A stretch of 64,000 nt of DNA, from contig JABAKD010000014.1 in the NCBI GenBank assembly GCA_012845835.1, positions 868,001-932,000 on the forward strand, in the 5' to 3' direction. A program made the translations under genes and the position numbers. Positions 1 to 63,533 of the stretch are shown here, piece after piece. Every line of letters starts with the position of its first letter. Within the stretch, counting starts at the first letter, position 1. Below the pieces are notes generated by a model, which saw nothing but the letters and a program-made list of their open reading frames with translations, was not told the origin of the DNA and did no database searches. This stretch comes from Undaria pinnatifida. Its lineage: Eukaryota; Sar; Phaeophyceae; Laminariales; Alariaceae.

Positions 1-71
1 TGGTACAAATTTTCGAGGAGGGCGATGCAGGAGCTCTTGCCGCCTCCAGAAGGACCAACAAGCGCCAGCAC
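1..71 (-). CDS. ABC transporter exon 12, partial (Walker A)
   Basis: The acceptor is ATGACAG|GTGCTG. It encodes VLALVGPSGGGKSSC, then IALLENLY, and runs off the window edge. GPSGGGKSS is the ATP-binding P-loop. Human ABCB9 has ALVGPSGSGKSSCVNILENF at the same place, so this is the clearest single family marker. A diverged copy of the exon start lies at 199-257. Confidence 0.95.
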   Translation of the reverse strand, partial: MLALVGPSGGGKSSCIALLENLY

Positions 72-1126
72 CTGTCATTATTCGGCACAACATAATCGGT
101 TCCGCCATTCGGTTAGGCCACGCCACGAAGTTATTCTGCGAACCGAACCTATTGGGTCAAGGGTTCGGCCAAGCCTTCTACTCAACCCAGTCGGTCAAAG
201 CTCTTGCAGCCTCCAGAAGAACCAGCAAAGGCTAGCTATCAATAGCACCTGTCATCATTCGGTAAATACTATCGGTAAATTAGCCATGTTCAGGTTAGTG
301 CCAGCACCGATCGTCAGTCAACATTTACTCTTCAGTTATTCGGATAAGCCACTCGAAGAAGCGCTATTCAGCAAAGCCATATACAGACAGATCAGCGCCA
401 GCAGCCATCATCGCTCCGTCTAGATTTTCGGTTCAAGTAATTCGGCTCAGCCACTACAAGAGCTAATTTTTCGGCGAGGGTATACCAGGTACCTGGTACG
501 GCCACTCGATCAAGATTTTCGGCCGAGCTTCACGGTCATTCGGTTAGAAACCCCGATTCGGTTAACTCGTTTGAACACGGTATTCGGCTACAGTAGTGCG
601 AGTATCCCCCAACAAGGCGGTCTGAGTGAGGAGGTATCCCTCTAGAAGGCGGCCAAAAGCGCTTGGCGCGTCAGGGAAATTGCACTACAGTACTCATAAC
701 CTGGAGTGAGTAAAACGGCTTCCCTTTATAAGGCGGTCCTATTGCTCTCTACATCATACCACGGTCTTGCTGGGGGACCTGTACTATACTTGGAAGGACA
801 AGCTATTCTGCATACCTGCTCGCACTAGCGAGAGAAAACACCGGATTAATGAAAGCAAAAAAAAACTCCATACGGGTTATATAATATCAGTGCGCACAAT
901 GTTTGTTTTTCACCGAAATCACCCTTGATAAAATTATCATGTTCACCCTCACGACATCCGGAGGAGGCATATATCTTTTAAAGGGTAATGCATGCGTAAC
1001 AACGCGCGACCGAAATATCACGCACTCTGCAAACATGAGTATCTACCCTTAAAATTGACCGAACTCACGGCTGACGTATTTGAAAAACTATTTTATAAAA
1101 TACCGCATGTAGCTATCGTATCGTAC
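72..1126. other. Intron 11, degenerate TTCGG repeats
   Basis: Apart from the exon copy, 72-640 is made of loose repeats of ATTCGGTTA-like words that seem to derive from the intron end next to exon 12. From 640 to 1126 nothing recognisable was seen except a short ACTCACGGCTGACGT box (about 1064), which recurs in other repeats of the window. Confidence 0.5.
199..257 (-). repeat. Degenerate copy of the Walker A exon start and its acceptor
   Basis: CTCTTGCAGCCTCCAGAAG, followed later by CACCTGTCATCATTCGG, mirrors CTCTTGCCGCCTCCAGAAG and CACCTGTCATTATTCGG of exon 12 (34-84). About 25 of the first 29 bases agree by eye. The copy has an extra segment before the acceptor and cannot replace the exon. 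Confidence 0.8.
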
Positions 1127-1178
1127 CTGGCCGGGGGCAGCTTTGAACGACATTCCGTCCAATATTTGTTTTCCGGGC
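1127..1178 (-). CDS. ABC transporter exon 11 (52-nt microexon before Walker A)
   Basis: The acceptor is TCTTGCAG|G and the donor is GGCCAG|GTACGA (phase 0). The 17 full codons are PGKQILDGMSFKAAPGQ. Together with the neighbours this reads EYPSR-PGKQIL...APGQ-VLALVGPSG, the exact order expected in an ABC ATPase (YPSRP..VL..L.F...PG....LVG). Phases 2 in and 0 out fit both neighbours. Confidence 0.88.
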
Positions 1179-1295
1179 CTGCAAGACACGACGGGGAAAA
1201 CAACAAAACCAAAAGAGACGAAAAAAAAACAAACACATGAGTCAAGCGGGGCGAGGGTGGGTTGCGGCATATGGTCGATCACCAAATACCGCATA

Positions 1296-2140
1296 CAGGG
1301 TATTCCCCACTAAGGCATGTCCGATTGCGAAATGCCCGATCACATTTCCGATTCTGGAAAGTCCGACCACAGCACGTTCGATCACCGACTACCGTATGTC
1401 CTATTACGGAATTCCCGGCTGCAGCATTTCCGACTACGGCATGTCCGATTATGGAATGTCCGATTACGTCATGTCGGATCACGGCTTATCCGATTATGGA
1501 AAGTCCGAGCACGGCATGTCTGACTATGCTGTGTCCGATTGAGGTACCGACCGTTACGTTACTCTTATGATACCGACCGTTACACTTATGTCACCGACCG
1601 TATATCTGATAGCAGCATGTCCGATCACGGAATGTCCGATTACGGATTGTCCAGGGTACGTCATGTCCGATCACGGTATATTCAACTGCGGAATGCCCGA
1701 TGGCAACGTTTCCGATTATGGAAATTCCGACCACGGCATCTCCGACTACTGATCACCGTATATCCGATTACGGCATGTCCGAGTACGGCATATCTGACAA
1801 CCGCGTACGGCGTATCCGACTCCCGTATGTCCGGTTGAGGCATGCCTGATAGCAGCATACTCAATTGCGCAAAGTCCGATTCCATTTTTTCCGATTAAGA
1901 CACGTCCGATCGTGGCATATCCGATTACCGATTACCGCATGTCCGACTACGGCGTGTCCGAGTACGGCATGTCGGACAACGGACTACGGCGTGTCTGACC
2001 GCGGTATGTCCGATCGCGGCATGTCTGATAGCAGCATGTCCGATTACGGAATGCTCGATTCACGACATTTCCGACTATAGAAAGTCCGACCACGGCATGT
2101 CCGATTGCCGATTACCGAATATCCGATTACGGCAAGTCCG
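1296..2140. repeat. 15-bp degenerate satellite in intron 10
   Basis: About 55 loose copies of CATGTCCGATTACGG fill this stretch. Because the unit is a multiple of three and poor in stops, several short open frames appear in it; they are not genes. Confidence 0.85.
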
Positions 2141-2185
2141 AGTACGGCATGCCTGACGACGTTATTTCTTCCCCAAATTTAAATA

Positions 2186-2480
2186 TCACTGTTGCTTCCA
2201 GGTTCTGGACAAGCCGCCGTGGTCACAGGTGTCGGTCGACCCTTCTCCCCCTCGGTACGCGGCTTCATTTTCATCGCGCAGGGGGTTCGGCATTCCCAAT
2301 GCTCGTCGAAAAACATCGAATTTTGCTAACTCACGATCTCGCGCTTTCCACGAGTCAATTTTTGCACAAGAAAAAGTCTCTGCAAAATACCAGTATGCAC
2401 TCGGGAGAGCTCGAACCAGCAAAATCGACCTTACTGGTACTAGGTAACGAGGTTAACCTACTAGACCACCGGGGATGCCC
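2186..2480 (-). mobile_element. tRNA-derived SINE copy
   Basis: Read on the minus strand it begins with a tRNA-like head: CCCCGGTGGTCTAGTAGG (A box) and GGTTCGAGCTCTCCC (B box). It then has a unique body ending CACCTGTGACCACGG...CTTGTCCAGAA. Copies elsewhere (16318-16625, split copy at 44445-44975, partial 38790-38850, 22330-22500) share head, body and A-rich tail. Confidence 0.75.
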
Positions 2481-2610
2481 ACCCGTATGTCCGACTAAGT
2501 CAAGTCCGATCGCGGCGTATGCCCCCTGCCGTCCACCTCCTCCCTTCCCCTGCGCACAAAAGAGCACGTCCACCACTGAAATAACTTGTACACGAAAAAA
2601 CAGATCGAAG

Positions 2611-2631
2611 AAAAATATCCCGCTCGCCTTG
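2611..2631 (-). repeat. Copy of the exon 10 donor edge
   Basis: AAGGCGAGCGGGATATTTTT here repeats AAGGCGAGCGAGATATTTTT at the real exon 10 donor (2651-2670). The two lie about 40 bp apart. Confidence 0.65.
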
Positions 2632-2668: not shown

Positions 2669-3019
2669 CTTGAAGGGTATTCGAAGTCGACGTTTCGAAT
2701 CTCCACCTCTCCTAAGCAGCTGTCCGGCTCTGCTCCTCCTCGCGTTTCCGACCCCGCTTCCACGCCGACCCACGACGATGTTGTTGCTGCTGATGATGCT
2801 CCTGCTGCTGCTCTCGCTGCTCCTGCTGCTGCTGCCGCTCTCGCTGCTCCTGCTGCTGTTGCTGGCGATGCTATTGCTGCTATTGCTGATGCTGCTGCCG
2901 TTTGCTGGAGTGGTGGTGGTGGCGGCGGCCGCGAAGACTGCGGTGGTGGTGGCGCAGCCCCTTTAGGCTCACGCCTCATCAGCTCGAAAACTTTGTCCGC
3001 TGCGCCTACCGCTTGGGTC
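2669..3019 (-). CDS. ABC transporter exon 10 (VGAADKVFEL, Ala-rich linker, start of ATPase domain)
   Basis: The acceptor is TTGCATGCAG|G and the donor is the rare CTTCAAG|GCGAGC (GC-AG intron, phase 2). It encodes MTQAVGAADKVFELMRREP, a stretch of about 80 residues rich in Pro then Ala from GCT/GCA-like triplet repeats, then LGEVEIRNVDFEYPSR. VGAA.KVFE and G.VE..NV.F.YP.R are standard flanks of the linker to the nucleotide-binding domain; the Tyr before PSR is the A-loop. The linker is usually about 20-30 residues, so this one carries an in-frame triplet-repeat expansion. Confidence 0.9.
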
Positions 3020-3730: not shown

Positions 3731-4004
3731 AGCGCTCAGGTATACTGAGGTGTAGGAGCCACCCAAAATAGTGATAAACACCGACTGTTTTTGACAACAT
3801 TGCTTCCGAGAAATACAAGGTAACATGAGCTATAAAGGCCATACAGATTTTTCCTGATACATCTAGATCATCACGTGGGGAAAGACCATCTGTCCCACGT
3901 GCGAGGCCAACACTTTTTACAACTGCACTCCCGCTTTGGGGTGGGCGAAAACTTGGACCAGAGTCATCCCACGGAACGGGTTGCACTTTTTCGGCCAATT
4001 GTTA

Positions 4005-6400
4005 GTGGTAATACTAGTGGTAATGTTAGTGGTGATGTTAGTGGTAATGTTAGTGGTGATGTTAGTGGGAATGTTAGTGGTAGTGTTAGTGGTAATGTTA
4101 GTGGTAATGTTAGTGGTAATGTTAGTGGTAATGTTAGTGGTGATGTTAGTGGTAATGTTAGTGGTAATGTTAGTGGTGATGTTAGTGGTAATGTTAGAGG
4201 TAATGTTAGTGGTAATGTTAGTGGTAGTGTTAGTGGTAATGTTAGTGGTAATGTTAGTGGTGATGTTAGTGGTGATGTTAGTGGTAATGTTAGTGGTAAT
4301 GTTAGTGGTAATGTTAGTGGTAGTGTTAGTGGTAATGTTAGTGGTAATGTTAGTGGTAATGTTAGTGGTGATGTTAGTGGTAATGTTAGTGGTAATGTTA
4401 GTGGTAATGTTAGTGGTAATGTTAGTGGTAATGTTAGTGGTAATGTTAGTGGTGATGTTAGTGGTAATGTTAGTGGTAATGTTAGTGGTAATGTTAGTGG
4501 TAATGTTAGTGGGAATGTTAGTGGTAATGTTAGTGGTAATGTTAGTGGTAATGTTAGTGGTAATGTTAGTGGTAATGTTAGTGGTAATGTTAGTGGTAAT
4601 GTTAGTGGTGATGTTAGTGGTAATGTTAGTGGTAATGTTAGTGGTGATGTTAGTGGTAATGTTAGTGGTAATGTTAGTGGTGATGTTAGTGGTAATGTTA
4701 GAGGTAATGTTAGTGGTGATGTTAGTGGTAATGTTAGTGGTAATGTTAGTGGTAATGTTAGTGGTAATGTTAGTGGTAATGTTAGTGGTAATGTTAGTGG
4801 TAATGTTAGTGGTAATGTTAGTGGTAATGTTAGTGGGAATGTTAGTGGTGATGTTAGTGGTAATGTTAGTGGTAATGTTAGTGGTAATGTTAGTGGTAAT
4901 GTTAGTGGGAATGTTAGTGGTAATGTTAGTGGTAATGTTAGTGGTAATGTTAGTGGTAATGTTAGTGGTAATGTTAGTGGTAATGTTAGTGGTAATGTTA
5001 GTGGTAATGTTAGTGGTAATGTTAGTGGTAATGTTAGTGGTGATGTTAGTGGTAATGTTAGTGGTAATGTTAGAGGTAATGTTAGTGGTGATGTTAGTGG
5101 TAATGTTAGTGGTAATGTTAGTGGTAATGTTAGTGGTAATGTTAGTGGTAATGTTAGTGGTAATGTTAGTGGTAGTGTTAGTGGTAATGTTAGTGGTAAT
5201 GTTAGTGGTAATGTTAGTGGTGATGTTAGTGGTAATGTTAGTGGTAATGTTAGTGGTAATGTTAGTGGTAATGTTAGTGGGAATGTTAGTGGTAATGTTA
5301 GTGGTAATGTTAGTGGTAATGTTAGTGGTAATGTTAGTGGTAATGTTAGTGGTAATGTTAGTGGTAATGTTAGTGGTGATGTTAGTGGTAATGTTAGTGG
5401 TAATGTTAGTGGTGATGTTAGTGGTAATGTTAGAGGTAATGTTAGTGGTGATGTTAGTGGTAATGTTAGTGGTAATGTTAGTGGTAATGTTAGTGGTAAT
5501 GTTAGTGGTAATGTTAGTGGTGATGTTAGTGGTAATGTTAGTGGTAATGTTAGTGGGAATGTTAGTGGTGATGTTAGTGGTAATGTTAGTGGTAATGTTA
5601 GTGGTAATACTAGTGGTAATGTTAGTGGTGATGTTAGTGGTAATGTTAGTGGTAATGTTAGTGGTAATGTTAGTGGTAATGTTAGTGGTAATGTTAGTGG
5701 TAATGTTAGTGGTAATGTTAGTGGTAATGTTAGTGGTAATGTTAGTGGTAATGTTAGTGGTGATGTTAGTGGTAATGTTAGTGGTAATGTTAGAGGTAAT
5801 GTTAGTGGTGATGTTAGTGGTAATGTTAGTGGTAATGTTAGTGGTAATGTTAGTGGTAATGTTAGTGGTAATGTTAGTGGTAGTGTTAGTGGTAATGTTA
5901 GTGGTAATGTTAGTGGTAATGTTAGTGGTGATGTTAGTGGTAATGTTAGTGGTAATGTTAGTGGTAATGTTAGTGGTAATGTTAGTGGGAATGTTAGTGG
6001 TAATGTTAGTGGTAATGTTAGTGGTAATGTTAGTGGTAATGTTAGTGGTAATGTTAGTGGTAATGTTAGTGGTAATGTTAGTGGTGATGTTAGTGGTAAT
6101 GTTAGTGGTAATGTTAGTGGTAATGTTAGTGGTAATGTTAGAGGTAATGTTAGTGGTAATGTTAGTGGTAATGTTAGTGGTAATGTTAGTGGGAATGTTA
6201 GTGGTAATGTTAGTGGTAATGTTAGTGGTAATGTTAGTGGTAATGTTAGTGGTAATGTTAGTGGTAATGTTAGTGGTAATGTTAGTGGTAGTGTTAGTGG
6301 TAATGTTAGTGGTAATGTTAGTGGTAATGTTAGTGCTAACATTACCACTAACGTTAGTGCTAATGTTAGTGCCAATGTTAGTGCCAATGTTAATATGTCC
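4005..6400. repeat. 2.3-kb array of a 12-bp minisatellite in intron 9
   Basis: About 195 copies of GGTAATGTTAGT stand head to tail with point variants (GAT, AGA, GGG, AGT). The AGAGG variant recurs near 4197, 4700, 5072, 5432, 5792 and 6141, that is every 29-42 units and mostly every 30 (360 bp), which shows a higher-order repeat. The last copies (6335-6400) decay into CTAACATTACC/GCCAATGTT forms. Four frames stay open for over 800 codons only because 12 is a multiple of three. Confidence 0.98.
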
Positions 6401-6469
6401 GGTTGAGCTCAAGCGTGCAACTATCGGTGAGGATGACATATTTGCAAGGTTGTGTTCTGTAGGGTTTGT

Positions 6470-6960
6470 GGATTCCGGGTAAGGGTACTATGGGAGTCCT
6501 GCAGAGCTTCCAGGGGTTTCGGGTACGGGTATGGAAGTGTTACAGAACTCAAAGAAGTTCCGGGTGTTGTGGCACGCGCGTACAGAACTCACAGAAGCAG
6601 GTGCTATTATTGCATGATATACGTGCTGCTGTTCGGTGTTCGGTTGGTGCGACTGACACAACGTGACATCCTAGTGCATAATACACCCTTTGGATTAAAC
6701 CTGAATTAATACAGAGCTCCCCGGGTATTGTAACAAAGGTATACCCGTACCCCGGGTATTGTGCCAACAGTCTTACAGGAGTCACAGAAGTCCCGGGTAA
6801 GGGTATGGCGATCTTACAGAACTTCCAGAAGTTCCGGGTACGGGCACGGAAGTCTTGCAGAACTTCCAGAAGTTCCGGGTATTGTGGCACAGGCGACTTC
6901 CAGAACTTCCGGCTACGGGTATGAACGTCCCACAGAACTTACAGAAGTTCTTTGTAGGGT
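6470..6960. repeat. Degenerate tandem repeat with ACTTCCAGAAGTTCCGG core
   Basis: Roughly seven units of about 60 bp repeat TACAGAACTTCCAGAAGTTC and CGGGTACGGGTATGG. The core is itself palindromic. Non-coding. Confidence 0.75.
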
Positions 6961-7788: not shown

Positions 7789-8004
7789 ATGGCCGAATAT
7801 ATGGAGGCCATGTCGTTGAACCCATCCGAGAGGGTTGTGAGGTAGATCATGAAGCTCACCACCTTCCCCCCCGTAATCTGCCCTTGCATCACCAAATTGC
7901 CGCCGTAGAACAAAACCAAGGCTGTTACCAGGTTAGGTAAGAGGACGTAGCTGCACGCGTACAAGCCGTATGCAAAGGCCCCCTTCTTAGAAAGCACATA
8001 GAAC
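7789..8004 (-). CDS. ABC transporter exon 9 (core helices 5-6)
   Basis: The acceptor is TTTGGTAG|G and the donor is CGGCCAT|GTGAGT (phase 2). It encodes FYVLSKKGAFAYGLYACSYV, LLPNLVTALVLFYGGNLVMQ, GQITGGKVVSFMIYLTTLSD and GFNDMASIYSAM. The helix, YYGG-like FYGG, SG..VSF and IYS motifs match ABCB9. Degenerate copies of its 5' edge and body lie upstream at 8593-8650 and 8756-8826. Confidence 0.95.
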
Positions 8005-8039: not shown

Positions 8040-8600
8040 CAGGGAATTATGTTAATTAACTGCAAAAAAGATTCCGCACTACGTGGATGGCGTTTGTGGG
8101 GAGGGCAAAGGGGGGTGAGGTGGAGTTAATTGAACGCAAAAATGATCCCACCCTAATTCCAAGTAGTTTAGACGTGCACAAAATCGTGGATGGGGCTTGC
8201 GGGGAGGGGATAGGGGATGAGATGGAGTTAATAAACCCCAAAAATGATTCCACCCTAATTCCAAATAGTATAGACGTTAAAAAAAACGTGGATGGGGCTT
8301 GTGGGGAGGGGATAGGGGTAAGATGGAGTTAATTAACCCCAAAAACGATTCCACCTTGATTCCAAATGGTATAGACGTTGAAAAAACCGTGGATGGGGCT
8401 TGTGGGGAGGGGATAGGGGATGAGATGGAGTTAATTAACCGCAATAATGACTCCACCTTAATTCCAAGTAGTTTAAACGTTGAAAAAATCGTAGATGGGG
8501 CTTGCGGGGAGGGGATGGGGGATGAGACGGAGTTAATTAACCGCAAAAATGATTCACCCTAATTCCATTTAGTTTAGACGTAAAAAAAACTTGGAGAGAA
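8040..8600. repeat. 100-bp tandem repeat next to exon 9
   Basis: Five units start near 8085, 8189, 8289, 8389 and 8490, each with GTGGATGGGGCTTGTGGGGA and GATTCCACCCTAATTCCAA. Weaker edges at 8014 and 8611 link the array to the exon 9 acceptor region (GAACCTACCA...GTGGATGGCGTTTATGGGG). Confidence 0.85.
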
Positions 8601-8826
8601 CGTAGAACCTACCAATTCGTGGGTGGCGTTTATGGGGAAGGGACAGGGGATGAGGTGGAGTTAACTAACCGCAAAAAAATATTCCAAACTAACGCCAAGT
8701 GAATTCAAACAAAAAACAATAACCTTGTAAAAATACAAGATTCGGCAAAAATATGTATATAGCTGCACGCGCACAACCCGTCCGCGTACGCCGCCGCCTT
8801 CTTGGCTAGCACGTACGCAGAATTCT
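8593..8826 (-). repeat. Degenerate copies of exon 9 edge and body
   Basis: At 8598-8640 GTAGAACCTACCA...GGTGGCGTTTATGGGG repeats the exon 9 acceptor side (7998-8036). At 8756-8826 the minus strand reads YVLAKKAAAYADGLCACSY in one frame, against YVLSKKGAFAYGLYACSYV of exon 9. The acceptor and the following helices are absent, so it is a pseudo-exon. Confidence 0.8.
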
Positions 8827-9240
8827 GGACGTTTTTTTTTTTTTTCGGGCAGGGGAAAGGGAAAGAGGTGAAGTAGTGTACCAACCTCACTGCCGAAAAA
8901 GAAATACCCCACACTATTTCCAAGTACGTCACCAACAACGTCATCTGTTTCAGGTGTGATTTTTATTCGACGGGGGAAAAAAAAGTGGCCAGCTGACAAC
9001 TGAATATAAAAAAAATGTTCCAAATACGTCAGCTGTGAACTCCATCTATTCAAGAGTCGATACCATTCTTTGCAAAGCTGCGTTATGCTCCGGCCGCGCG
9101 TTGTTTCATACCGGTATGTATTTAATATTCTTCGAAGATATTGGATTCCCCCAGATGCTGCCAAGGAGAAGGAGGCAATGTTACCGCCAGGGCGATTTCG
9201 GTCCACAAATAGCTCATTTTCTCTACATCATCGCACTCAC

Positions 9241-9356
9241 TCTTGAAGCGTATTGGCGTACTCCTTGCATTCTCTCCCTTCTGCCGCGAAGGACCTGACC
9301 GTGCTCATGCTGCTCAGGGTTTCCTCCGCCACGGAACCCGCCTCCGCCAGTTTGTC
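9241..9356 (-). CDS. ABC transporter exon 8 (TVRSFAAE region)
   Basis: The acceptor is ATCGCAG|GAC (phase 0) and the donor is CAAGA|GTGAGT (phase 2). It encodes DKLAEAGSVAEETLSSMSTV, RSFAAEGRECKEYANTLQ and the first bases of Glu. ..LA.A...AEE..S...TVRSFA.E is the long intracellular helix of TAP-family exporters. No edge copies were noticed for this exon. Confidence 0.95.
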
Positions 9357-10306: not shown

Positions 10307-10454
10307 CTGGGAAAGCTTAGAAATGCTTCGGATGTAGAGCCCGTACCACTTGGAGACCAACACTATCGCCGGGACGGAGATGAACGCCACCAAAGAGAGT
10401 CGCCACGAGAGGTAGAACATGAACAGAAGGGTGACCACCACCATCACCGTGTTG
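10307..10454 (-). CDS. ABC transporter exon 7 (core helices 3-4)
   Basis: The acceptor is ACCGGCAG|C and the donor is CCCAG|GTAAGG (phase 0). It encodes NTVMVVVTLLFMFYLSWRLS, then LVAFISVPAIVLVSKWYGLY and IRSISKLSQ. It matches FMFSLSWQLSLVTFMGFPII of ABCB9. A run of about 23 G residues (10480-10502) lies just upstream of the acceptor in the transcript. Two degenerate copies of the 5' half of the exon follow it in the upstream intron. Confidence 0.92.
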
Positions 10455-10689: not shown

Positions 10690-11020
10690 TGCAAGCAATT
10701 TGTAGAGATAGAACATGAACGGAAGGGCCACCGCCACCGGCAATCACCAATCACCATGTCGCCGGTGGGGCGGGGCACGGGGGGTTGGGGATTGAGGGGG
10801 GGGAAGGGGGGGTAGCGAAGGAAGGTGTCGGATATTTACGATTCAACATACCACCTGCGTGTGTTGAAGCTCATTGGTTTAGGTTCCACAGCACATGGCT
10901 CAGGTTTCGCCGTATTTTACACTGAATCCCAGCAGTGTGTACAGGTAGAATCCAAAAAAGCAGGGGCACAATCACCATCACCATGCTGCTCACGGTGTGG
11001 GGGGGAGCGGGGGTACTCAT
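10690..11020 (-). repeat. Two degenerate copies of the exon 7 5' half
   Basis: 10690-10785 repeats AGAACATGAACAGAAGGG...GCCGGTGGGGCGCGGGGCAC of exon 7 plus acceptor and G-run. 10937-11010 is a weaker third copy. The intervening intron (10520-10615) is repeated at 10826-10920 as well, so the unit is about 300 bp, in tandem. Confidence 0.75.
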
Positions 11021-12210: not shown

Positions 12211-12254
12211 AAGACTGAAAAAAACCCCGGCGAAAACCGAGAAACAGCGACACT

Positions 12255-15205: not shown

Positions 15206-15214
15206 CTGACAAAT

Positions 15215-50515: not shown

Positions 50516-50595
50516 TGACACTGCTGCCCATACTTCGCTCAAAAGCAGCACCAGAGCGAGGTTTTGTACTGATGTGGAGGCGAAAGTGGGCCATG

Positions 50596-50790: not shown

Positions 50791-50809
50791 ATAGGACATA
50801 GGCTCCCCT

Positions 50810-51920: not shown

Positions 51921-51944
51921 ATATATATATATATATAGATATTA

Positions 51945-52320: not shown

Positions 52321-52861
52321 TTTGCTATATGATTTTTTTTTTCTTGGGGGGACAGGGATTTGTTCGGGATTTTTTTACGTCTCGGCCTCAGTATGGGATT
52401 CTCGGAACTGATATTTCTGGATCAAATCGCTTCGATCAAGCGCCGTCTTCGGGGGGCGGTTCCAACGCCCCTCGCCCTGCCTTATCCGTTCTGCAGCTCG
52501 ACATGAACGCGGATAGACGCTGAATGAGACAAGCGAGAAGTGCGATATTTTTTGTATTTTGGGCGATATATACGCCCGAGCTATTCTTGGAAATTGGCAT
52601 GTGTAGAGCTTGAACGAATAAATCAAGGGACAACGTTTCCAAACTGGCATCATTTCCAAATTGGCATATAAATTTCTTCCCGACGACGCTTTTTTCATGG
52701 CCTCCTCGGAGCGCTTGCCCTATCGTAGCTACTACTGCTGCGTGTCGTTGCCTTTCGGCCCAGTGGGTATAATAACCAACGAAGGATGTGTCGTGAGTTC
52801 GATTTTCACTGAGATCATATTTGGTATTCAGGAGCGTGCGCGCTGGAGACGTTATGAATGG

Positions 52862-52951
52862 TTATGGCAATTGAGTTAAATCGACACACGACGTGTATGA
52901 AAATACGTGGAAGTGTGGTGAGCTTGAGCTTTATTTTTCGCCATCCGCCGG

Positions 52952-52988
<37 letters not shown>

Positions 52989-52990
52989 AC
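52862..52990 (-). mobile_element. Short interspersed element and AT microsatellite
   Basis: CAATTGAGTTAAATCGACAC to CGCCATCCGCCGGGGGAT is an inverted copy of the 23905-24015 family. An ATATAT run (52957-52985) replaces the T-run at its end. Confidence 0.75.
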
Positions 52991-53550
52991 AAGGGCTTCG
53001 CTCGCGGGCGGCTGGGCGCCGCCCGCTACGCTTGCGGAAGGAGGAATAGACATTCAGTAGAAAGGCGGAAAAGAAGCACAAATGGCGCAACTGGCGACTT
53101 GAAAATGCCAAGAGGTCCATATATAGTACAACGGTACAGGATAGAGACGATTATGATTATGAGTTTGTTATTATCATCCATTCGCCCAGTCCATGATGGG
53201 CACGTCGGAGGACTTGCTTGGCATATCCTTCCACCTCTCAGGTAGCACCTAGGTCCTGTACACTTATTAATAGCTCTCTCTAAGTCGATCATCAATGATA
53301 AATTATCGCAGTGCATAAACACCAGGCACGCGCTTGTCAAGGATAGAGACAGGAAAACTACAACTTAAGATGTAAAGGAGCGCAGTGCCAAAAAAAACAT
53401 GCTGGAAGCAGGAACTTGAACGCACACACCGCAAACATGTGAAGTACATTTGTATTCCTGAAAGACGAAGAGCACGCATTTAGGCATAGTTCTCAAAAAA
53501 CGATGCTGGTATATTAAACCACAACTTAACGTTCTATAAAGAACGTGCTG

Positions 53551-53724
53551 TCAACATTGCTTCCGAAGGAGCATGCAGGCTTGCTTGGACTCTTCCTCCT
53601 CAGCGGAGGTACCCAGCACCTTGCACTCTTGTTTTTTGTCGATGGTCTTGTGGATCTGTCCACAAACGTTGAAGCATGGCGGGAGAACGTCGATAAGTAT
53701 GTGTAAAAAAGTATTCGTACTTCT
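53551..53724 (-). CDS. Probable last exon of the same unrecognised protein
   Basis: From an acceptor at GCTGGAG|AGA (phase 0) it is open to TGA at 53551-53553. It encodes RSTNTFLHILIDVLPPCFNV, CGQIHKTIDKKQECKVLGTS and AEEEESKQACMLLRKQC. There are five Cys residues, including C...C, and the protein ends in Cys. The acceptor has a weak pyrimidine tract, so the exact start is uncertain. The gene would be nested and antisense in cyclophilin intron 1. Confidence 0.5.
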   Translation of the reverse strand, partial: RSTNTFLHILIDVLPPCFNVCGQIHKTIDKKQECKVLGTSAEEEESKQACMLLRKQC

Positions 53725-53929
53725 CTCCAGCAGACGTCGTAACCATCCAAATTATTGGAGCTCCTTTCGCTGTTAGTAATTGTTGTGGTATTGTTGTACT
53801 TTCTCTTGGTACTTGGAAAAAGAGCCGCACTTCATAGACTATATCCGCACGCCATCCCCTAGTCTTGAGCAAGAGACATGGATGTCTCGACTCGTGACAC
53901 ACAGGACGCAAGATAAGAGTAGAACGTAC

Positions 53930-54097
53930 CTCGATGTCGAACGCCCTCGTGGCACCGTGGGAATGGAATGCGGGATGTATATCGAGCAAGTGGTCGCCTG
54001 CCTTCTTCAGGAGGTCACCGACCTTGATGTCGCCGGTGCACTTCGTGTTTATGTCCTCGCCGACTTGGCGGCCCTCGGCGGCTTCTTCGCGGGGCTT
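53930..54097 (-). CDS. Exon of an unrecognised protein (56 codons)
   Basis: The acceptor is CGTTTGCAG|AAG and the donor is ATCGAG|GTACGT, both phase 0. Only this frame is open. It reads KPREEAAEGRQVGEDINTKC, then TGDIKVGDLLKKAGDHLLDI, then HPAFHSHGATRAFDIE. Composition and splice sites look genuine and differ from the surrounding repeats. No family was recognised. It is probably joined to 53551-53724 across a 205-bp intron. Confidence 0.55.
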
Positions 54098-55133
54098 CTG
54101 CAAACGACAACAACGGATGGGAATACCTTGCGTTCAGTGAATGTTCAAAATAGTAAGGCCACGTAGCTGTCGTCGATTTCCAAAGTTGGAAAGGAAGTCG
54201 TACAATTTAACACTGTTGTAATGAAAGCGGTCGTTTATGGGCAAAGCCCTGCCTGGTACCACAACGTTGCTAACACCTATGAAACCACCACTGGGACAGG
54301 AACGAACGGGATTCACAGTCGCAACTGGTAAGCGTAAGCCCCGGTATACTGCTATATAAGGCCTACCGGCGGAATACCGACAACGAAGGGTAAGAGACAG
54401 TACCTGCTGTATATATTGTTCGGTACTACTCTATTACTGCTGCTATCAACACTATTACGACCGACGTGTACTGCGATTCCTGAAGAGGTTGCGCACCCTA
54501 CTTGTACTCGTTAATACAAAGAGTTCATGTGGTTGTATGAAAAATGAGTAACAGTAGTAGTACACCGCGTCACTACATGAACAACTCGCTAACCCCAATC
54601 ACGGGACTGCTCTCCAGCATCACCCAGGTTAACTTCAGCTTCTGTTTACTGCTATATATCAACCTCCAGTGTGTACTGCGACTGGTGCTGAGGTATCATG
54701 CTGCTGTGTTATTTATCACTGCATGGACCATTTTTACAACCCTGGCTGACCCCCGTGATGAGACTTGCCCGTTTTCATTGCGTCTTACATGTATAGATAC
54801 CACGTAGTCGTAGTCGTACATCCAAAACGTGTGTTTATATCACAGCACAAAGCGTCACTGCATGGACCACTTGTTCAACCCCCGCTTACCCCGATGACGG
54901 GACTGCCCCGTACTCGTAGTCGTACATACATGAAGTGTGTTTGGCTGTACGTATGAAAAAGAAATCGCATCACACAGCGTCACTGCATAGGTCTACTCGT
55001 AGACCTGAGTACTTGTACAATTCCCGCTTACACCGCGATGACGGGACTGCCCCGTACACGCACTCGTACATGCAAAAGTGTGTTTGTACGCATGAAAAAG
55101 AAATCACAGCACAACAACAGAAATGTAACTCAC

Positions 55134-55600
55134 GCTTCGTCAAGCTCTCAGCTCCTTCGTTAGGGACGCCGATCGAAGGTGAATCACAGGTGTCCGCGTC
55201 ACACCAGTCACACACACGAGGGTTGTCGCCGCTTCCCCAGTGCTTCTTGTTAAGGTTATGAAAAGCTTGGCACGTGGAAGGCTCGTCACTCCTGCAGGTG
55301 TCGCAGACAGCGTACTGGGAACTCCTGTTTTTCCTATTTCGTGCGATGAGGAAGCCGTCACAACCCTTGCTCGGGCACGGCCAATCAGGATTGCCAGAAG
55401 AAGCTGAGTCCCGTTCTTGCCCGACCAGCTTCCACATGCCTGATCCTGAACCTCCACCACCCCCACTGTTGGCGGAGCCTCCTCCCGCACTAGCCTTGGT
55501 CCGCTTCGCAAATTTCAACTTCAAATTGTTATTGCCGATCCGGCAATTTTCAAATTCAAATTGTTTGCAGCCGTCAACGGCAATTCCCTCTCAACAGCCA
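55134..55600 (-). CDS. Cysteine-rich putative zinc-binding exon, function unknown
   Basis: An open stretch on the minus strand ends at the good donor AAGC|GTGAGT (phase 1). Its 5' edge is not fixed: there is no ATG, and an in-frame stop lies a little above 55600. It encodes NNNLKLKFAKRTKA, a Gly/Ser linker, then a Cys-rich block with W.C....C, C..C, and C..C....C spacings (DWPCPSKGCDG, VCDTC, VCDWCDADTC). The spacing resembles treble-clef or RanBP2-like zinc fingers but fits no family exactly. It lies inside intron 1 of the cyclophilin on the other strand. Its phase does not fit the next exon-like stretch at 54097, so an exon between them is missing or they belong to different genes. Confidence 0.5.
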
Positions 55601-55879
55601 GCAATTGGCCAACTTCAAATAAAAGTACAAAAAAGAAGTTGCTGAAAAAGCAAAATAAAAAATATCAGAGAGCAAGCAGTAAAGACCAGAGAATGAGAGC
55701 TAAAAAGTAAGTAAGAATGAGACTAGGGAAAGCAAGGAAAGCAAGGAACTTCGGGACGGTTCTTTTCCCCAGCAACTAATTTTCTTTTCGGCAATTACGG
55801 GCTGAGAAGCGCTGAGAGGGGGGAGGATATGCCGAGCGAGACGTCCGTGGGGGGCGAGGTCTAGGTATACAGTTATATA

Positions 55880-56360
55880 TATATAAAAGTAGTTGTTAGT
55901 GTTCTCCTAAGTACTTCCACATCGTAGTACGTGGAGAGGGGATAGCCCCGGAGATCCCTCTTACCAAGTCGGTGAGAATTAATTAACGAACACTCGAAAA
56001 CATATTTGGTTGTTTTTTTAGCATAACCCACTGAGTTACTGAGTCACGTGACAGAGTGTGTAGTGCCATGTGTCGTGAGTTCGATTCTCACGGACTTCAT
56101 ATTTGTCTTTTCCAAGCGTGCGCGCTGGCATTATGAATGGTTATTTTGATAGTTTGCTCCTGAGTACTGCTACTGCTGTAGTCAGTGGCGAGGGGAGAGC
56201 CCCGGAGATCCCTGTTAAAAAGTCGGTGAGAATCAGTTTACGAACTCGACAACATATGTAGCACCATCCACTGAGCTACTGAGTCAAGTGATTAAGTAGC
56301 TCAGTGGGCAGTGCTATAGGATTTCTCGGTCAAATCGCTTTGTTCGAGGGGCGCCGTCCA
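55880..56360 (+). repeat. Tandem pair of tRNA-like repeat units
   Basis: Two units (about 55905-56150 and 56160-56340) share AGCCCCGGAGATCCCT, AAGTCGGTGAGAATYA and CCACTGAGCTACTGAGTCA. The first also has TGAGTTCGATTCTCACGG, a B-box-like sequence. 55640-55880 shows nothing recognisable. Confidence 0.6.
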
Positions 56361-56810
56361 ACGCCCCTCGCCCTTCCTTATCCGTCCCCTACCCGATCGT
56401 GAACGCGTACTACGTACGGGAGGTAAAAAACACATCCGAGAATGTGCGACGATTTTGGATTTTGGCCTCCTGAGCAGTTTTTTTTCCGAGAACGGGTCAA
56501 CACATGGTGTACTTATCGATGACACAGCAGCAATCTATTTTAATAATCTTCTTGACAACATGTAGTGTGCGCGAGCGATCGATGATACAGCAGTAGATAA
56601 TCTGTAATAATACTAGACGATACACATATATATACCTGGTACGCTGTTTTCAAATTCGGAGCTTCAAGAGCAGCAGTAAATAATGTTGACTGGCACCACT
56701 TGCAACACCTCTCTCGGTAACGCGGCGTCAACCATCGTAATATCATACAATATGGGGGCATGTAATCTTTGCGCAAAGATCCTGTTTTGTTTTTTCAATT
56801 GCCAGCCGGT

Positions 56811-56895
56811 CGCCCCGGTGGTCTAGTGGTTACCCTCGAATACTACTAGCGGATGTTTGTCCTTGAGTTCGATTCCCACCATGATTAGATTTGAC
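56811..56895 (+). mobile_element. SINE head, plus strand
   Basis: GGTCGCCCCGGTGGTCTAGT and GAGTTCGATTCCCACCATG match the tRNA-like head of the SINE at 2186 and 16318. The body is missing. Confidence 0.65.
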
Positions 56896-56954
56896 TTTAT
56901 TTGCAAAAATGCAAATAAAAAGGGATCAACTGCTGGGTGTGCCTAGCAGCGTGG

Positions 56955-57150
56955 GTAGGTACGTTTCGACGCGAGTCGACGAGGGAAAAAAGTGCTGACT
57001 TCTTCTCGCGATAAAAATGAAGGCACGTGCCGAAGTGGGGAGAGGGAAAGAGGGCCCGCTATGTAACCCCGGATCTGAGTTACTACTGGGAGGGAGCGCG
57101 AGAGTAATGCGAGGATAATAAATGGGATGAAGAAAAAAATGTTGCAAACG
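56955..57150 (-). repeat. Interspersed repeat, TACTACTGGGAGGGAG family
   Basis: TTTCGACGCGAGTCGACGAG ... AACCCCGGATCTGAGTTACT ... GGATAATAAATGGGATGAAG; minus copy, close to 17590-17765. Confidence 0.8.
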
Positions 57151-57429
57151 TATGTTATTACTACCACACACAGCACCCCTATCCTATTCCGGGATATATA
57201 TATATATATATTTGTATATGTCCGTTCTTCTCTAGGCAAAAAATATTGACAGATTACTTATTTTTGGTGCAGTAGTATTTCATCCTGAAAGAAGATACTA
57301 GAGCGTCTGCGCCTTTTTTTTTCTGATGTTGGATTTTCAGTCCGAAATGAAAAAACTTGACATCGACCTTCCGCGATGGGCTTAGTCCGAAATGAAAAAT
57401 ACTTCGACGAGTAAATAATATTAGTCTCT

Positions 57430-58065
57430 AAGGCCATTTCTTATACAGTCGGATTCCGCCAGTCGAAAACAGCCCTTTTCTACTGGACTTTTTTTCGACT
57501 GGAATTTTCCGGTCCTTCTTCTTATCGTCAGTCGAGTCGATTTTATAGTTTTTGTGCTCTTCCTAGAGGCGGTTGGTGTGAGGGAGTACTGCTGTACAGC
57601 AGTCGAAATCGGTTAGCAGCTCTGTGCTTCGCGCTTTCTCCGCGAGCAACGGCTCGACGAACCCTCCTCCCAGCGAGTTGGTGGCTGTGGGCTTAGCCGA
57701 AAGCCGCCAAAGCTACGTTCGTGGAGTTGCACTCAGCCGAGAGCCGCCAAAGCTACAGCAGGCGCAGCCGTTGTTGGCAGCATGGGATCGATACCGCGCG
57801 CTGCTGCCATCGTGTGATACACGCTGCTGGCGAGCGGAACTAGGAATGCGCCACGCTGACTTGCTGCGAGAAGCAACGGCAGTGACAGCCACGCCAGCGT
57901 CAGCCCCTTGTATGATACTGCAGTGTGGTACCTGGTATGGGTGCGTGGCCGTGTGGCCGTGTGAGTGTGTGTTTGGTGGTGGGATGAACGATGCGATCGG
58001 TTCAAAGAGCACGTGCAAAACTCTTTCGACTGAGTTTTTCGACTGGAGGATCAAATTTGACCTTC
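57430..58065 (+). mobile_element. TIR element, ACAGTCGGATTCCG family, nearly full length
   Basis: Left end TTATACAGTCGGATTCCGCC and right end GAGTTTTTCGACTGG. It holds a plus-strand ORF (57624-58115, 163 codons) starting MLRAFSASNGSTNPP with AWDRYRALLPSCDTRCWRAE. The product was not recognised. A second full copy is inverted at 36395-37105 and a partial one is at 33062-33300. Confidence 0.72.
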
Positions 58066-58254
58066 AGAATCTCATGTTCGTATTAAACTCTTGGCATTAC
58101 TGTACAGTTCACTAGAAGTCAAATCGGACAGCTACAACTTAACTTGTCGAAGTACTGCCCTGCCCATGCGGAGCCCTTGTGTATATATTGATACACATGA
58201 AAAACATTGATAGTATACTCATACAAAAAGGAGACAGTGAAAAGCGCCGAGAAG

Positions 58255-58625
58255 AACAATACAGAGTAACTATGACTTTGTGGTCTAGTAGATAGATTGT
58301 CCGCTTATGAGCCTGGTGTGCGTGGGTGCAAATCCCGGTGTCATCGGATCAAAATATGAAATGTACGACCTCATAACAACGCGTAGACTGTCCGCTTCTG
58401 AGCCCGGTGTGCGTGGCATTGAATCCCGGTGCCATCGGAAAAAAAAATGGTGCACATAAAAAAGCATTGATAGTTTAGACTACTAATACAGAAAGGAGAC
58501 GGTGAGCCGCGCTTAAAAAAACACATCAGTTACTGTGACTTTGTGGATTAAAAAGTAGATAGACTGTCCGCTTATGAGCCTGGTGTGCGTGGGTTCAAAT
58601 CTCGGTGTCATCGGGAAAAAAGAGA
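58255..58625 (+). repeat. Three tRNA-like repeats in tandem
   Basis: Each has GACTTTGTGGTCTAG-like and TGTCCGCTTATGAGCC then GTGTGCGTGGGTTCAAATC and GGTGTCATCGG. These are relatives of 51690-51920. 58625-59110 shows no gene. Confidence 0.7.
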
Positions 58626-59109
58626 ATGATACTCATGAAAAAAAAAACATTGATATTATACTCTTGAAAGAAGGAAGCGGTGAGAAGCGCTAAGAAGCGC
58701 CGTTTCAGGCATCCGGGCCCGCCCAGCAGTCCGGGAAGGAGAATTTCTTAACGTTAGAGTGGGAAGCGAAAAAAATTGAGGCCGCTTAGGAAATCGATAT
58801 TCGTAAGTAGTTGTATTAATAGCTCATGTTGCCGGGTGCGAGCCGTCCTATCTGCATGATCTGGCACATGTTTCCGAGGTTTTATCTGTATTCCATATGC
58901 ACAGACCCTGCACGTGTCTCAACGGCAGCTGTAGGATCTACATGATCTATATAATCTATTGTAGATCGTCATCTTCATGAGGTGTAAAACCGTCGAACGT
59001 TACCGGCAGCTTGCGCTGCCGGGGTAGTAACGGGGACCGCCGGTAGGGACAGCTCGCGCTATCGCTATCGCGGGAACTAAAGGGCACGCCAGAAAACCAG
59101 CTGGATTAC

Positions 59110-59990
59110 GAATACAATTGAGTTAAACTGACACACAACGTGTATGAAAATACGTCAAGTATTTTTTCCCTCCGCCGGAGGATAAGGGAAACAAAAAAAG
59201 TCATAATGCAAGGCCAACCCAACCTACGAAAAGTCAGCGAAAACTCAGACGAGAAGTTTGTTCTCCTACCATTCGTTGTTTTTAACCTGTTTTTTTTCGT
59301 GCGTGGCTTAGCCTTGGGCTATGACGTTCGTCGGTTTAAATACTACCAGAATCCTCGAGTGTTTACGATAAAAACATATAAACAAATTCTTCCTTGGAAA
59401 TGGCCAGGTTCATTCCGGCAGGCAGTTGTTGGCTGTGCTTGCGGTGAGTGACCACAAAACACACACATAAACACAAAAATACCATGCTGTGTACAGAATC
59501 CACCCACAGCATCGATTCCTGTGCACGACAACGAGCACAGAACACTTTAGGATCACGCGTAGGAGAGAGTGAAAACAGCAGCAGCGGCGGCAACTTCGGC
59601 GGGGGTGGAGGTGGTGATGGCGACGGCCCAGCAAGAGGGATTGCGGCACAGCAGCTCGACTGGCTCGGCAATCGCCACGATCACCACCACCACCACCGGC
59701 ACAACAGACAGCGGATACTTTTAATTTTGAGAAACACACAGGAGACACCAACAGCAGCCACAGCACAGCAGCAGCAGCGGCGGCGGCGGTAGCGGCGGCG
59801 GCGGCGGTAGCGGCGGCGGCGGGCGGGGGTGCGGTGGGCGTGGCTGTGGCGGTGGAAGCGTCGGTGACAAGAGTTGTGGTATAGCGGCAGTGGTTGAGAA
59901 AAACAGCACCGAATACGAGAACATCACAGAAGCAGCGACAAGAACGAGGTCATCGCAAAGTGCGCTGGAGCGCTGGGTCGCTAGCACCTA
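59110..59990. other. GC-rich simple repeats, no gene recognised
   Basis: 59115-59190 is an inverted copy of the CTCCGGCGGATGGGG element. 59575-59860 is GGC, CAC and CAG trinucleotide-rich (GCGGCGGCGGTAGCGGCGG). Long Pro-, His- and Gly-rich frames here come from the simple repeats. Confidence 0.6.
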
Positions 59991-60559
59991 TCCCTGAGGT
60001 TGCGCCTACGCGCCATGCTCCCCAAGCTATCCTTTGGTGCTTCCATGCTGTCAAGGTTGGGTTGTGTCTACAGCTGCTAAGGGCAGCGGGCAGCGAGCAG
60101 TGTCTGCTCTGTGCTGCTGTGGGTTGTGCCCCCTTGCCCCTTGGTTGCTGTACCGTTGTGCCTGGAGAGCGTCGGGGTAAAGCTCGGTACATGTAGACCA
60201 TGGATAGGCTGCGGGGGATCGATTGAACTTTTGCAGAAGCTTGGTCCCAATCGTTTCGCCCAATTCGGAATTTTCCCGGTCGTTTTGGGTCAAACCCTTC
60301 TTTCAACACTAGTTCGGGGGATTTTTTAGATTGAATTGTAGCTTGACTTTTGTCCAAAACACTAGAGTATTACCTTATTTCCAACCCTACCGAATTTGCA
60401 TATCGCAAACACCCCATCGTCTACAACAGTACTGTGTGAGCATGTTGGCAAGTGAAGCATGAATTGGACCGTCGCTTAAGGAAAGAGCACCGACACCTGC
60501 ACACTGCACACGGTCAATGCCAGCCTGGAAGTACGTGTAGGTGCTACGGTCTCAACATG

Positions 60560-62290
60560 GGCCGGTTGCGAGGATCACTGATCACTGCTGCTGCGTTCAG
60601 TAGTTAGGATCATTGCTGCTATTGGTCATGAGGATCACTGCTGCTGTTGGTAGTGAATTATCACCTTTGCTTATGCTCCTCGGCTTTGTATTTATTATTT
60701 GATTCCCTTGGTATGCGGTGAACTCGGTTTCAGTTGGGATTCTTGAAACGTACCAGATATGCACCAGTAAGGGCCTGATACGTACGTACGCTGACTTCCG
60801 ATTTCACTTTTGTTTGGCTGCTGTACGGCTTGTTTCGCCTATGATATATACGTGTACCGCTGTTTGTTTGCTTTTATTTTTTCCTGGGATGATATTCTTC
60901 CCCTCCAGAGTGACTGGAGCTTGTCCTGTGACCATGGACTTGATTTGTTAATGTGAGAACATAATCACCTATGTTGTTGGTGGTGAGGATCGCTGCAGTG
61001 GTGTGGATCACTGCTGCTGTCGGCTGTCGGTACGAAGTACATGATCTCTGCTGCCGTCAGTAGTGAGGATCATTGCTGTCGGCGGCGATGGTCACTGCTG
61101 CTATCGATGGCGATCGTCATGGCTGCTGTCGGTAATGATGATCGCAGCTGTCGGTAGTGCTGTTATTTTTCTGTCGGTAGTGAGTGCGCCGCTTCTACCG
61201 GTCGTGAGGATCACTGCTGCTTTCTGTATTGAGGATCGCTGTTGGTGCCGATGGTGAGGATCACGGCTGTCGGTATTGCTGCTCTTTGCTGTCGGTAGCC
61301 AGGATCGCCGCTGATGTCGGTGGTCACGATCACTGCTGTTCTCGGTAGCAAGGATCATTGCTTCTGTCTGAGGACCGCCCCTGCTGTCTGTCGTGAGGAC
61401 CACTGCTGCTTTCGGTAGTGAAGATCCCTGTTGGTGTCGGCGTTTAGGATCACTGCTGTCGGTAGTGCTGCTCCTTGTTGTCGGTAATCAGGATCGCTGC
61501 TGATGTCGGTCGTGAGGATCACTGCTGTCTTCGGTAGCGGGGATCATTGCTGCTGTCTGCAGTGATGATCGCTGCTGTCGGTAGTGCTGCTCTTTGCTTT
61601 TAAGCATTGAGGATTACCACTGCTGTCGGTGGTGGGGATCACTGCTGCTTTCGGTAGTGTGGATCGCTGTTGCTGTCGATGATGAGGATCACTGCTGTCG
61701 GTAGTGCTGCTGTTTGCTGTCGATAGTGAGGATCGCTGTTGCTGTCGGCGGTGAGGATCAATGCTGTCGGTAGTGCTGCTGTTTGCTGGCGGTAGTGAGG
61801 ATCGCCGCTGCTGTCGGTCGTGAATAGCACGACTGCTTTCTGTAGCGAGGATCGCTGTTGCTGTCGGCGGCGAGAATCACTGCTGTCGGTAGTGCTGATG
61901 TTTGCTGTCGGTAATAAGGATCGCCGCTGCTGTCGGTCGTGAATATCACGACTGCTTTCGGTCGTGAGGACCACTGCTGCTTTCGGTAGTGAGGATCGCT
62001 GTTGCTGTCGGCGGTGAGGATCACTGCTGTCGGTAGTGCTACTATTTGTTGTCGGTAGTGAGGATTGTCGCTGCTATCGGTTGCGAGGACCACTGCTGCT
62101 ATGGGGATTGCCGAGAGCTATCACTCGTGTCGGCATTAGTGCTTCTCTTTGCTGTCGGTAGTGAGGATCAACGCTGCTTCGGTAAGGATTGAGGACCACT
62201 GCTGCTGTAAGGATCGCTGTTGTTGTCGGCGGTGAGGATCACTGCTGTGGGTAGCAGACGAGAGAATGCTGCTTGCTGCGTTGAGCGGCG
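60560..62290. repeat. 1.7-kb GGATCACTGCTGCTGTCGGTAG minisatellite
   Basis: About 45 units of 30-50 bp combine GAGGATCACTGCTG with TGTCGGTAGTGCTGCT. Sparse at 60560-60660 and dense at 60990-62260. Long open frames in it (on the minus strand, SDPHYRQQ-like repeats) have no gene context. Confidence 0.88.
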
Positions 62291-62439
62291 AACAGCTTGC
62301 GAGTTCGTCCGGTGGTGGGTGATTTCGCCTATTTAATGGCGTTTTGACCGTAGCACCTTTTTTTATTTTTAGTCGAGTCTAGATACTTGCATGTCTCTGA
62401 TTCGAAAATTATATCACCCCTGTGTTCACGCCGTGTTCT

Positions 62440-62478
62440 CGATTATCGTAACGGTTTCATCGGATTATCACGCACCGT
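62440..62478 (+). repeat. Copy of the cyclophilin exon 2 acceptor edge
   Basis: TATCGTAACGGTTTCATCGG mirrors TGTCGTGACAGTTTCATCGG at the real edge (62535-62554). The copy has lost the AG, so it cannot serve as an acceptor at that point. Confidence 0.72.
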
Positions 62479-62543
62479 CGCTGAATCAATACCTATGCCC
62501 CCTCTCCCCTCTGGTGACACCGCCTGCTTGGTTGTCGTGACAG

Positions 62544-62668
62544 TTTCATCGGGTGATCGCCGGCACGGGGATAATGGGTGGCGATGTTGAGGGCGCTAAA
62601 GGGTCAAAGAGCCACTCGGCGTTCGGCATGCGCTTCTTCCCGGATGAGGCGTTCCTCATCCCACACAC
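62544..62668 (+). CDS. Cyclophilin exon 2 (FHRV to IPHT)
   Basis: The acceptor is GTGACAG|TTTCAT (phase 0) and the donor is CACAC|GTGCGT (phase 2). It encodes FHRVIAGTGIMGGDVEGAKG, then SKSHSAFGMRFFPDEAFLIP and H. FHR contains the catalytic Arg of the family and GGD is conserved, but the PGFMCQ motif reads AGTGIM. Edge copies occur on both sides (62440-62478 and 62765-62815). Confidence 0.9.
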
Positions 62669-62764
62669 GTGCGTAACAGGCTTATATTAATTTGTGTTAG
62701 CAAGCATGTTAGCATAATTAGGCGTTTTTAGTACGGTAACAATAGCATAGTTGTGAATGTTTTT

Positions 62765-62815
62765 TGGAGCACAATTGCGCTTCTTCCCGAATGAGGCCTT
62801 TCTGATCCCGCATAC
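62765..62815 (+). repeat. Copy of the cyclophilin exon 2 donor edge
   Basis: GCGCTTCTTCCCGAATGAGG then CATACGTGCGT repeats GCGCTTCTTCCCGGATGAGG and CACACGTGCGT of exon 2 (62628-62674). The GTGCGT donor and the RFFPNEAFLIPHT reading frame are both kept, so this looks young or constrained. Confidence 0.88.
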
Positions 62816-63316
62816 GTGCGTCTTCCAGAAACGGCTGTGACTGACGCTATGATCAGGGTAGAGAGTTTGGACATCACGTTTCTGACCGACGCGGCTCCTC
62901 AACCACCAATGAACGACTGCACTACCCAATACCATTGGAATGCCATTTGTATTGTACAACGTTGTTTGTTTATACCTAGGCCATGGGATGAGTTAGTCGA
63001 GCTGCTCTCATACATATCTTTTCATTTTTTTCATTTTTTGGCTGCGGTACGTATGGAGCTCATGCAAGGAGCCTTAAAAAAACATGTGAAATTAGTTGCT
63101 CTTTCAGTTTTTTTTCTTCAAAAATGTTGCAGCGCGTATGGGGCACGTTTTACCGTAGGGTACGTCTCTCTTGCTCTGCTGTCTTGTGCCCTGGCTCGCA
63201 ACCTGGTGATGCGCAAGATGGGAGTTGCGGCCGTCTTGAAGAACTTTCAATGTCCAGGTTTTTATTCCTCCTCGTCTGACCTCGTCTCGCCCCTTTTCCC
63301 CCCCGCGTTGACGCAG

Positions 63317-63533
63317 TGCTCCTGGTCTACTCACAATGGCGAACTCAGGCGTGCACACCAATGGGTCTCAGTTCGTCATCACCACTGGACCTGCTGGACA
63401 CCTCGACGGGCGGTCGGTCGCGTTCGGACGCGTAACGTCGGGGTTGGAAGTTGTGAAGGCGGTGTACGGCATGTACAGCATTCGGGGCAAGCCGGTGTCC
63501 GACATTAGGGTTTCAAAGTGCGGCGAGATGTAG
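63317..63533 (+). CDS. Cyclophilin exon 3 (C-terminus and stop)
   Basis: The acceptor is GACGCAG|T and the stop is TAG at 63531-63533. It encodes [60 protein letters not shown] and [22 protein letters not shown] and HLDG..VAFG are the usual cyclophilin motifs with Trp121 replaced by His. The first base completes the Thr codon begun in exon 2. Confidence 0.93.

Follow-up and report, generated by a model that had tools for sequence, protein, structure and literature searches.

Worn exon-edge copies in the introns of two head-to-head genes of Undaria pinnatifida

The introns of two head-to-head eukaryotic genes of Undaria pinnatifida (Phaeophyceae) contain degenerate copies of the edges of their own exons. 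The genes, a predicted ABC transporter on the minus strand and a predicted cyclophilin on the plus strand, lie in a 64,000-nucleotide (nt) stretch of contig JABAKD010000014.1 (positions 868,001 to 932,000 of assembly GCA_012845835.1), which is called the window here. Copies are found at 8 of the 26 exon edges tested; they are local to their source exon, occur in direct orientation only, and their frequency does not clearly exceed that of copies of other sequence within the same introns. We favour, at a probability of roughly 0.8, the reading that local tandem duplication is generally frequent and acts at any position, and that those duplications that span an exon–intron junction leave exon-edge copies in the intron.

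Edge copies in the adjoining introns

For each edge, 60 exonic nt (52 for ABC exon 11) were aligned to the adjoining intron over at most 3 kilobases (kb) or as far as the next exon, and the score was compared with those of random sequences of equal dinucleotide make-up. The 26 edges, 13 acceptors and 13 donors from two genes, form a small sample. Same-strand copies in the edge's own intron (p < 1e-3) were detected for the acceptors of ABC exons 3, 5, 6, 7, 9 and 12 and for the donors of ABC exon 4 and cyclophilin exon 2. At p < 1e-4, seven of the 26 edges are retained with 20 random sequences per edge (exon 7 at 1.5e-4) and eight with 60 (exon 7 at 1.4e-5). A sequence-only reading of this DNA had claimed edge copies for nine exons; the edge test recovers eight of them among the 15 placed exons (ABC exons 3, 4, 5, 6, 7, 9 and 12 and cyclophilin exon 2), while the ninth, ABC exon 10, is doubtful. 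Its acceptor is weak (p = 1.6e-3; 3.0e-3 in a repeat test), and a direct repeat of about 20 nt that spans its donor includes only about 4 exonic nt and is marginal (p = 4.8e-3). The acceptor of exon 4 is similarly weak (p = 3.2e-3; 0.011 on repetition).

None of the 26 edges matched its intron in reverse complement at p < 1e-3 (the nearest was the exon 6 donor, 1.1e-3). At the same cut-off, mispaired edges and introns gave 1 match in 608 (5 in 608 on the reverse strand), and the intron at the other end of the exon gave 0 of 22. Within this window, exon-edge sequences are thus not common to different introns. The mispaired and same-intron-matched tests used an exon 2 acceptor at 31737, 7 nt off its final position of 31730; the own-intron test was repeated for the 26 edges with the acceptor at 31730 and returned the identical eight matches. 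An apparent exon 2 match (query 31711–31770) was set aside because it overlaps its own target. The 7 of 20 matches obtained when an intron is viewed from its other exon are the same matches seen from the opposite end, and do not constitute a control.

The edges derive from the following gene models. The ABC gene extends from about 45986 to past the window start. The joined translation of its exons 3–12 has ABCB9 as its best match among solved structures (7v5c, E = 1.6e-96), its membrane part matches the Pfam family ABC_membrane, and the gene is predicted to encode a TAPL/ABCB9-like half ABC transporter. Exons 3–12 form a single open-frame chain with agreeing phases, which makes their edges firm. 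Exon 1 was placed by its reading frame and donor, with the first ATG of the frame as its presumed start. Exon 2 was located through splice and coding scores; with its acceptor at 31730, the reading phase is continuous from exon 1 to exon 3. The plus-strand gene matches the Pfam family Pro_isomerase and is accordingly annotated as a putative cyclophilin.

1–71, minus strand: ABC exon 12 (Walker A), truncated at the window end
1127–1178, minus strand: ABC exon 11; no edge copy detected
2669–3019, minus strand: ABC exon 10, with a GC donor
7789–8004, minus strand: ABC exon 9
9241–9356, minus strand: ABC exon 8; no edge copy detected
10307–10454, minus strand: ABC exon 7
11751–11939, minus strand: ABC exon 6
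15075–15205, minus strand: ABC exon 5
17290–17470, minus strand: ABC exon 4
23192–23370, minus strand: ABC exon 3
31378–31730, minus strand: ABC exon 2, phase-compatible with exons 1 and 3; no edge copy detected
45806–45986, minus strand: ABC exon 1; no donor-edge copy detected
46700–46837, plus strand: first coding exon of the cyclophilin gene (C1), edges uncertain
62544–62668, plus strand: cyclophilin exon 2 (C2)
63317–63533, plus strand: cyclophilin exon 3; no acceptor-edge copy detected

ABC exon 10 apparently uses a GC donor (AAG/GCGAGC), and its reading phase agrees with that of exon 11; the exon encodes a long linker rich in Ala, Pro and Ser (2740–2960) that separates the membrane part of the protein from the nucleotide-binding part. 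A piece of the cyclophilin model is missing between the first and second placed exons, and this 15.7-kb interval (46837–62544) probably contains one more small exon.

The individual copies and associated arrays are listed below.

199–310, minus strand: exon 12 acceptor-edge copy; 37/50 identical on the exon side and 46/64 on the intron side, AG kept
8081–8590, strand not assigned: 102-nt tandem array near exon 9, related to the end of the intron that precedes this exon
8590–8673, minus strand: exon 9 acceptor-edge copy; 19 exonic nt with 4 differences, each of them synonymous; AG kept
8713–8875, minus strand: second, more worn exon 9 acceptor-edge copy; AG lost
10704–10817, minus strand: exon 7 acceptor-edge copy; AG not aligned and counted as lost
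10905–11013, minus strand: second exon 7 acceptor-edge copy; AG kept
12220–12361, minus strand: second exon 6 acceptor-edge copy; AG lost
12432–12593, minus strand: exon 6 acceptor-edge copy; 68/97 on the exon side, AG kept
15206–15957, minus strand: exon 5 tandem array, unit of about 225 nt that includes 40 nt of exon 5 and its acceptor
16769–16941, minus strand: exon 4 donor-edge copy; GT kept (CAG/GTGAGA)
17030–17191, minus strand: second exon 4 donor-edge copy; GT kept
22643–22736, minus strand: exon 3 donor-edge copy; 25/30 on the exon side, GT kept
23578–23698, minus strand: exon 3 acceptor-edge copy; 49/67 on the exon side, AG kept
62414–62477, plus strand: probable cyclophilin exon 2 acceptor-edge copy; AG lost
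62776–62821, plus strand: cyclophilin exon 2 donor-edge copy; 34/40 on the exon side and 6/6 on the intron side, GT kept

The copy of exon 5 had been reported as identical at 49 of 51 positions, and a count on the alignment bears this out. Some copies had also been said to sit in satellites whose unit contains the exon edge. This holds for the exon 5 array, with copies near 15423–15522, 15648–15751 and 15877–15966, but not for the 102-nt array near exon 9, which was rejected as exon-derived: its intron part matches (0 of 400 random sequences reach its score), whereas its exon part is undetectable (p = 0.94). A derivation of the 25-nt satellite at 61043–62100 from cyclophilin exon 2 is likewise unsupported (p = 0.16). 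Copies on both sides had been described for two exons, and in each case one side passes the edge test. For exon 3 this is the acceptor; the donor copy reaches significance only with 20 intronic nt added (p = 1.9e-5, against 5e-3 for the exon alone). For cyclophilin exon 2 it is the donor; the acceptor gave p = 0.44 in the 3-kb test, and its copy scored 148 against 56±9 for random sequences (0 of 400) in a test whose target was chosen after the copy had been seen.

Decay of the copies and their splice sites

Decay statistics were obtained from 15 hand-picked copies, with array-only and weak matches left out, and the identity profile from 14, the near-identical exon 5 copy being left out as well. 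Differences between exon and copy number 52/271, 52/271 and 80/272 at the three codon positions, and comprise 71 synonymous and 105 nonsynonymous changes. This codon-position pattern is as expected for a freely drifting copy compared with a constrained exon that changes at silent sites. The identity profile is flat across the junction (0.80 and 0.81 in the flanking 10 nt of each side), stands at 0.74–0.80 at 10–60 nt into the intron, and drops to 0.62–0.70 at 60–90 nt into the exon. Of the 15 copies, 10 retain the splice dinucleotide, in good agreement with the fraction of 0.64 that the identity at the junction predicts under neutral decay. The copies look neutral, like ordinary intronic sequence.

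These data bear on a possible regulatory role, for which the copies would be retained as decoy or alternative splice sites or as parts of alternative exons. Several copies do keep good sites, such as that of the exon 4 donor, and three differ from their exons mainly at silent positions (4/4 and 13/20 for exon 9, 5/6 for the cyclophilin exon 2 donor), though the numbers are small. Over all 15 copies, however, nonsynonymous differences exceed synonymous ones, splice sites decay at about the same rate as the bases around them, and no whole exon among the 12 checked by blastn is covered by a near direct repeat. We thus regard retention for regulation as very unlikely. Selection on decoy splice sites was rejected in view of the missing identity peak at the junction and the retention of dinucleotides at the expected rate; nothing indicates that decoy sites are either preserved or avoided.

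An assembly error or unmerged haplotypes could be suspected from the exon 5 array, whose units are near-identical (39/40). Exon-side identity is 70–87% in 13 of the 15 copies (69% and 97% in the remaining two), and most copies are far too diverged for assembly duplication, which leaves this explanation with next to no probability.

The position of the copies argues for growth of existing introns. In the 14 of 15 copies measured, the offset from the genuine junction is 91–810 nt and lies on the junction's own side, so that an existing intron grew and no new intron was born. Tandem genomic duplication, in which an exonic segment containing AGGT is doubled, is an established route of intron gain (PMC3443670, PMC2891723), and the copies could in principle be relics of intron birth by this route. 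Such an origin predicts the edge copy at the opposite end of the intron; the observed copies include intronic flank and lie in introns of 648–15706 nt, and we hold a birth-relic origin to be extremely improbable. The likeness to AGGT-mediated gain (PMC3443670, PMC2891723, PMC4974935) is that exonic sequence and splice signals are tandemly duplicated together; the difference is that here an existing junction is duplicated and an existing intron enlarged.

Splice junctions and the intronic background

A genome-wide test had been proposed of whether exon edges recur in their own introns more often than random intronic 60-mers. Run within the window, its outcome depends on the background used. In the same-intron comparison, the 60-mers of each edge's own intron served as background (2353 tests), and 60-mers of low complexity (below 28 distinct trinucleotides) were removed, as they were from the complexity-filtered background below. 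Eight matches were observed against 5.46 of 26 expected at p < 1e-3 (P = 0.13), and there is no clear excess. Local-copy rates vary widely between introns (p < 1e-3), from 3.4% in ABC intron 2 to 67% in ABC intron 10, with 0 of 19 in the last cyclophilin intron.

A junction-spanning copy is also expected to stay detectable for longer, since substitutions in its exon arm are mainly synonymous. In a simple simulation, run at assumed rates, the persistence factor for the exon arm came to about 1.5-fold; with it, the expected number of matches rises to 8.17 at p < 1e-3 (P = 0.63) and 6.98 at p < 1e-4 (P = 0.37).

Several points weigh against duplication without regard to junctions. At the stricter cut of p < 1e-4, the same-intron comparison is a near miss (8 matches against 4.65 of 26 expected, P = 0.055). 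When introns are pooled, 8 of 23 edges match against 176 of 1308 one-sided 60-mer tests (p < 1e-4; Fisher p = 0.009), a two- to threefold excess; against complexity-filtered 60-mers, the pooled p falls to 4e-4, and to 1e-4 with a score cut-off. The pooled background left out positions 3900–6500 and 150 nt around exons, and its 23-edge counts placed the exon 4 acceptor at 17516 (finally 17470) and lacked exon 2 and the C1 donor. Two of the strongly copied edges border introns of low repetition (ABC intron 2, 3.4%; the last cyclophilin intron, 0 of 19 tests; p < 1e-3). The persistence factor of 1.5 depends on the assumed rates of its simulation. Finally, 14 of 15 copies were measured to stand 91–810 nt from the genuine junction and several pairs do not abut, which leaves their tandem birth as an inference.

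A rival reading is a junction-directed process, in which duplication would start preferentially at acceptors, through slippage at the polypyrimidine tract or branch site, and junctions would drive intron growth. Consistent with this, six of the eight strong edges are acceptors, the exon 5 array and the array at the intron end before exon 9 both sit at acceptor regions, and edges exceed the pooled background, with a borderline matched excess at the strict cut. Yet the excess over the same introns is not clear and disappears on correction for persistence, six acceptors among eight edges (from 13 acceptors and 13 donors tested) are too few to show a bias, and identity has no peak at the junction. 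We therefore consider a junction-directed process unlikely; a junction-specific process is unsupported in the window after same-intron matching, though the pooled comparison favoured it and the strict cut is borderline. The window needs no special treatment of junctions, and a modest preference is compatible with so small a sample. Of the proposal that local tandem duplication across exon–intron junctions enlarges introns, the local and direct character of the copies, their inclusion of splice sites and the added length are retained, and the favouring of junctions is not.

Local tandem duplication as a probable source of the copies

Direct repeats within 3 kb make up 22.7% of the window, a 12-nt satellite included, and inverted repeats 7.0%. 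Among the 12 exons analysed with blastn (exons 1, 2 and C1 not included), 363 of 1976 exon bases (18%) fall in near direct repeats, a share no higher than that of the whole window. Under general local tandem duplication, introns of the locus would frequently undergo direct-orientation duplication at any position. Where breakpoints straddle an exon–intron junction, the far part of the exon would stay with one copy only, and the other copy, with its splice site, would become intron sequence and decay without selection. Some duplicated units would later expand into arrays; the arms of the exon 5 array still abut, and other pairs are separated by gaps of about 100–500 nt. Copies across junctions would remain recognisable for longer than intron–intron copies, their exon arm changing mostly synonymously, and it is because of this exon constraint that they stand out to a reader of the sequence. 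The lack of whole-exon copies among the 12 exons checked is probably due to selection removing extra exons.

Local tandem duplication in non-coding DNA arises by slippage, unequal exchange and break repair, any of which may have produced the copies described here. They resemble its usual products in their direct orientation, short range, variable unit, occasional arrays and neutral decay, and differ in their density in the window and in the inclusion of exon edges in some units. As in the tandem exon duplication that gives rise to mutually exclusive exons, exonic sequence is copied into a neighbouring intron (PMC9013439), but only partial, decayed edges are present here and splice sites are not specially kept. 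Introners are likewise a source of intronic sequence (PMC9860276); unlike these elements, which are copied into many genes, the present copies are private to each junction. A literature search for intron growth by local duplication, or for minisatellites at intron–exon boundaries, found nothing related, with most subscription journals outside its scope, and we do not claim that the pattern is unpublished.

The window contains further repeats. The 12-nt satellite (TGTTAGTGGTAA; about 199 copies, 95% matches) occupies 4000–6392 in an ABC intron and has an extreme strand bias, with a GC skew of 0.99 at 4001–6000. ABC intron 1 holds a large inverted repeat (40273–44416) with arms 95% identical over about 1.06 kb, and the same structure includes a direct duplication of about 550 nt. 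One dispersed family, 90–93% identical, occurs at 22095–22251, 34018–34153, 41422–41576 and 51933–52090, and two others lie near 17580, 32442 and 56926 and near 33075, 36909 and 57432. An open frame at 20112–20720 gave no match in Pfam; we take its translation to resemble the RNase H end of a retroelement.

A wider proposal is that acceptor regions are genome-wide duplication hot spots in this lineage and that the copying of their own ends is the main way in which introns lengthen, which we consider quite unlikely. If acceptors were such hot spots, junctions would seed intronic arrays and leave a dated record of duplication anchored on conserved exons; if junction copying drove intron growth, splice sites would be linked to genome expansion. 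Since they change slowly, exon edges serve as anchors by which old local duplications can be dated, and the density of worn exon-edge copies could be used to gauge the rate of tandem duplication in intron-rich genomes.

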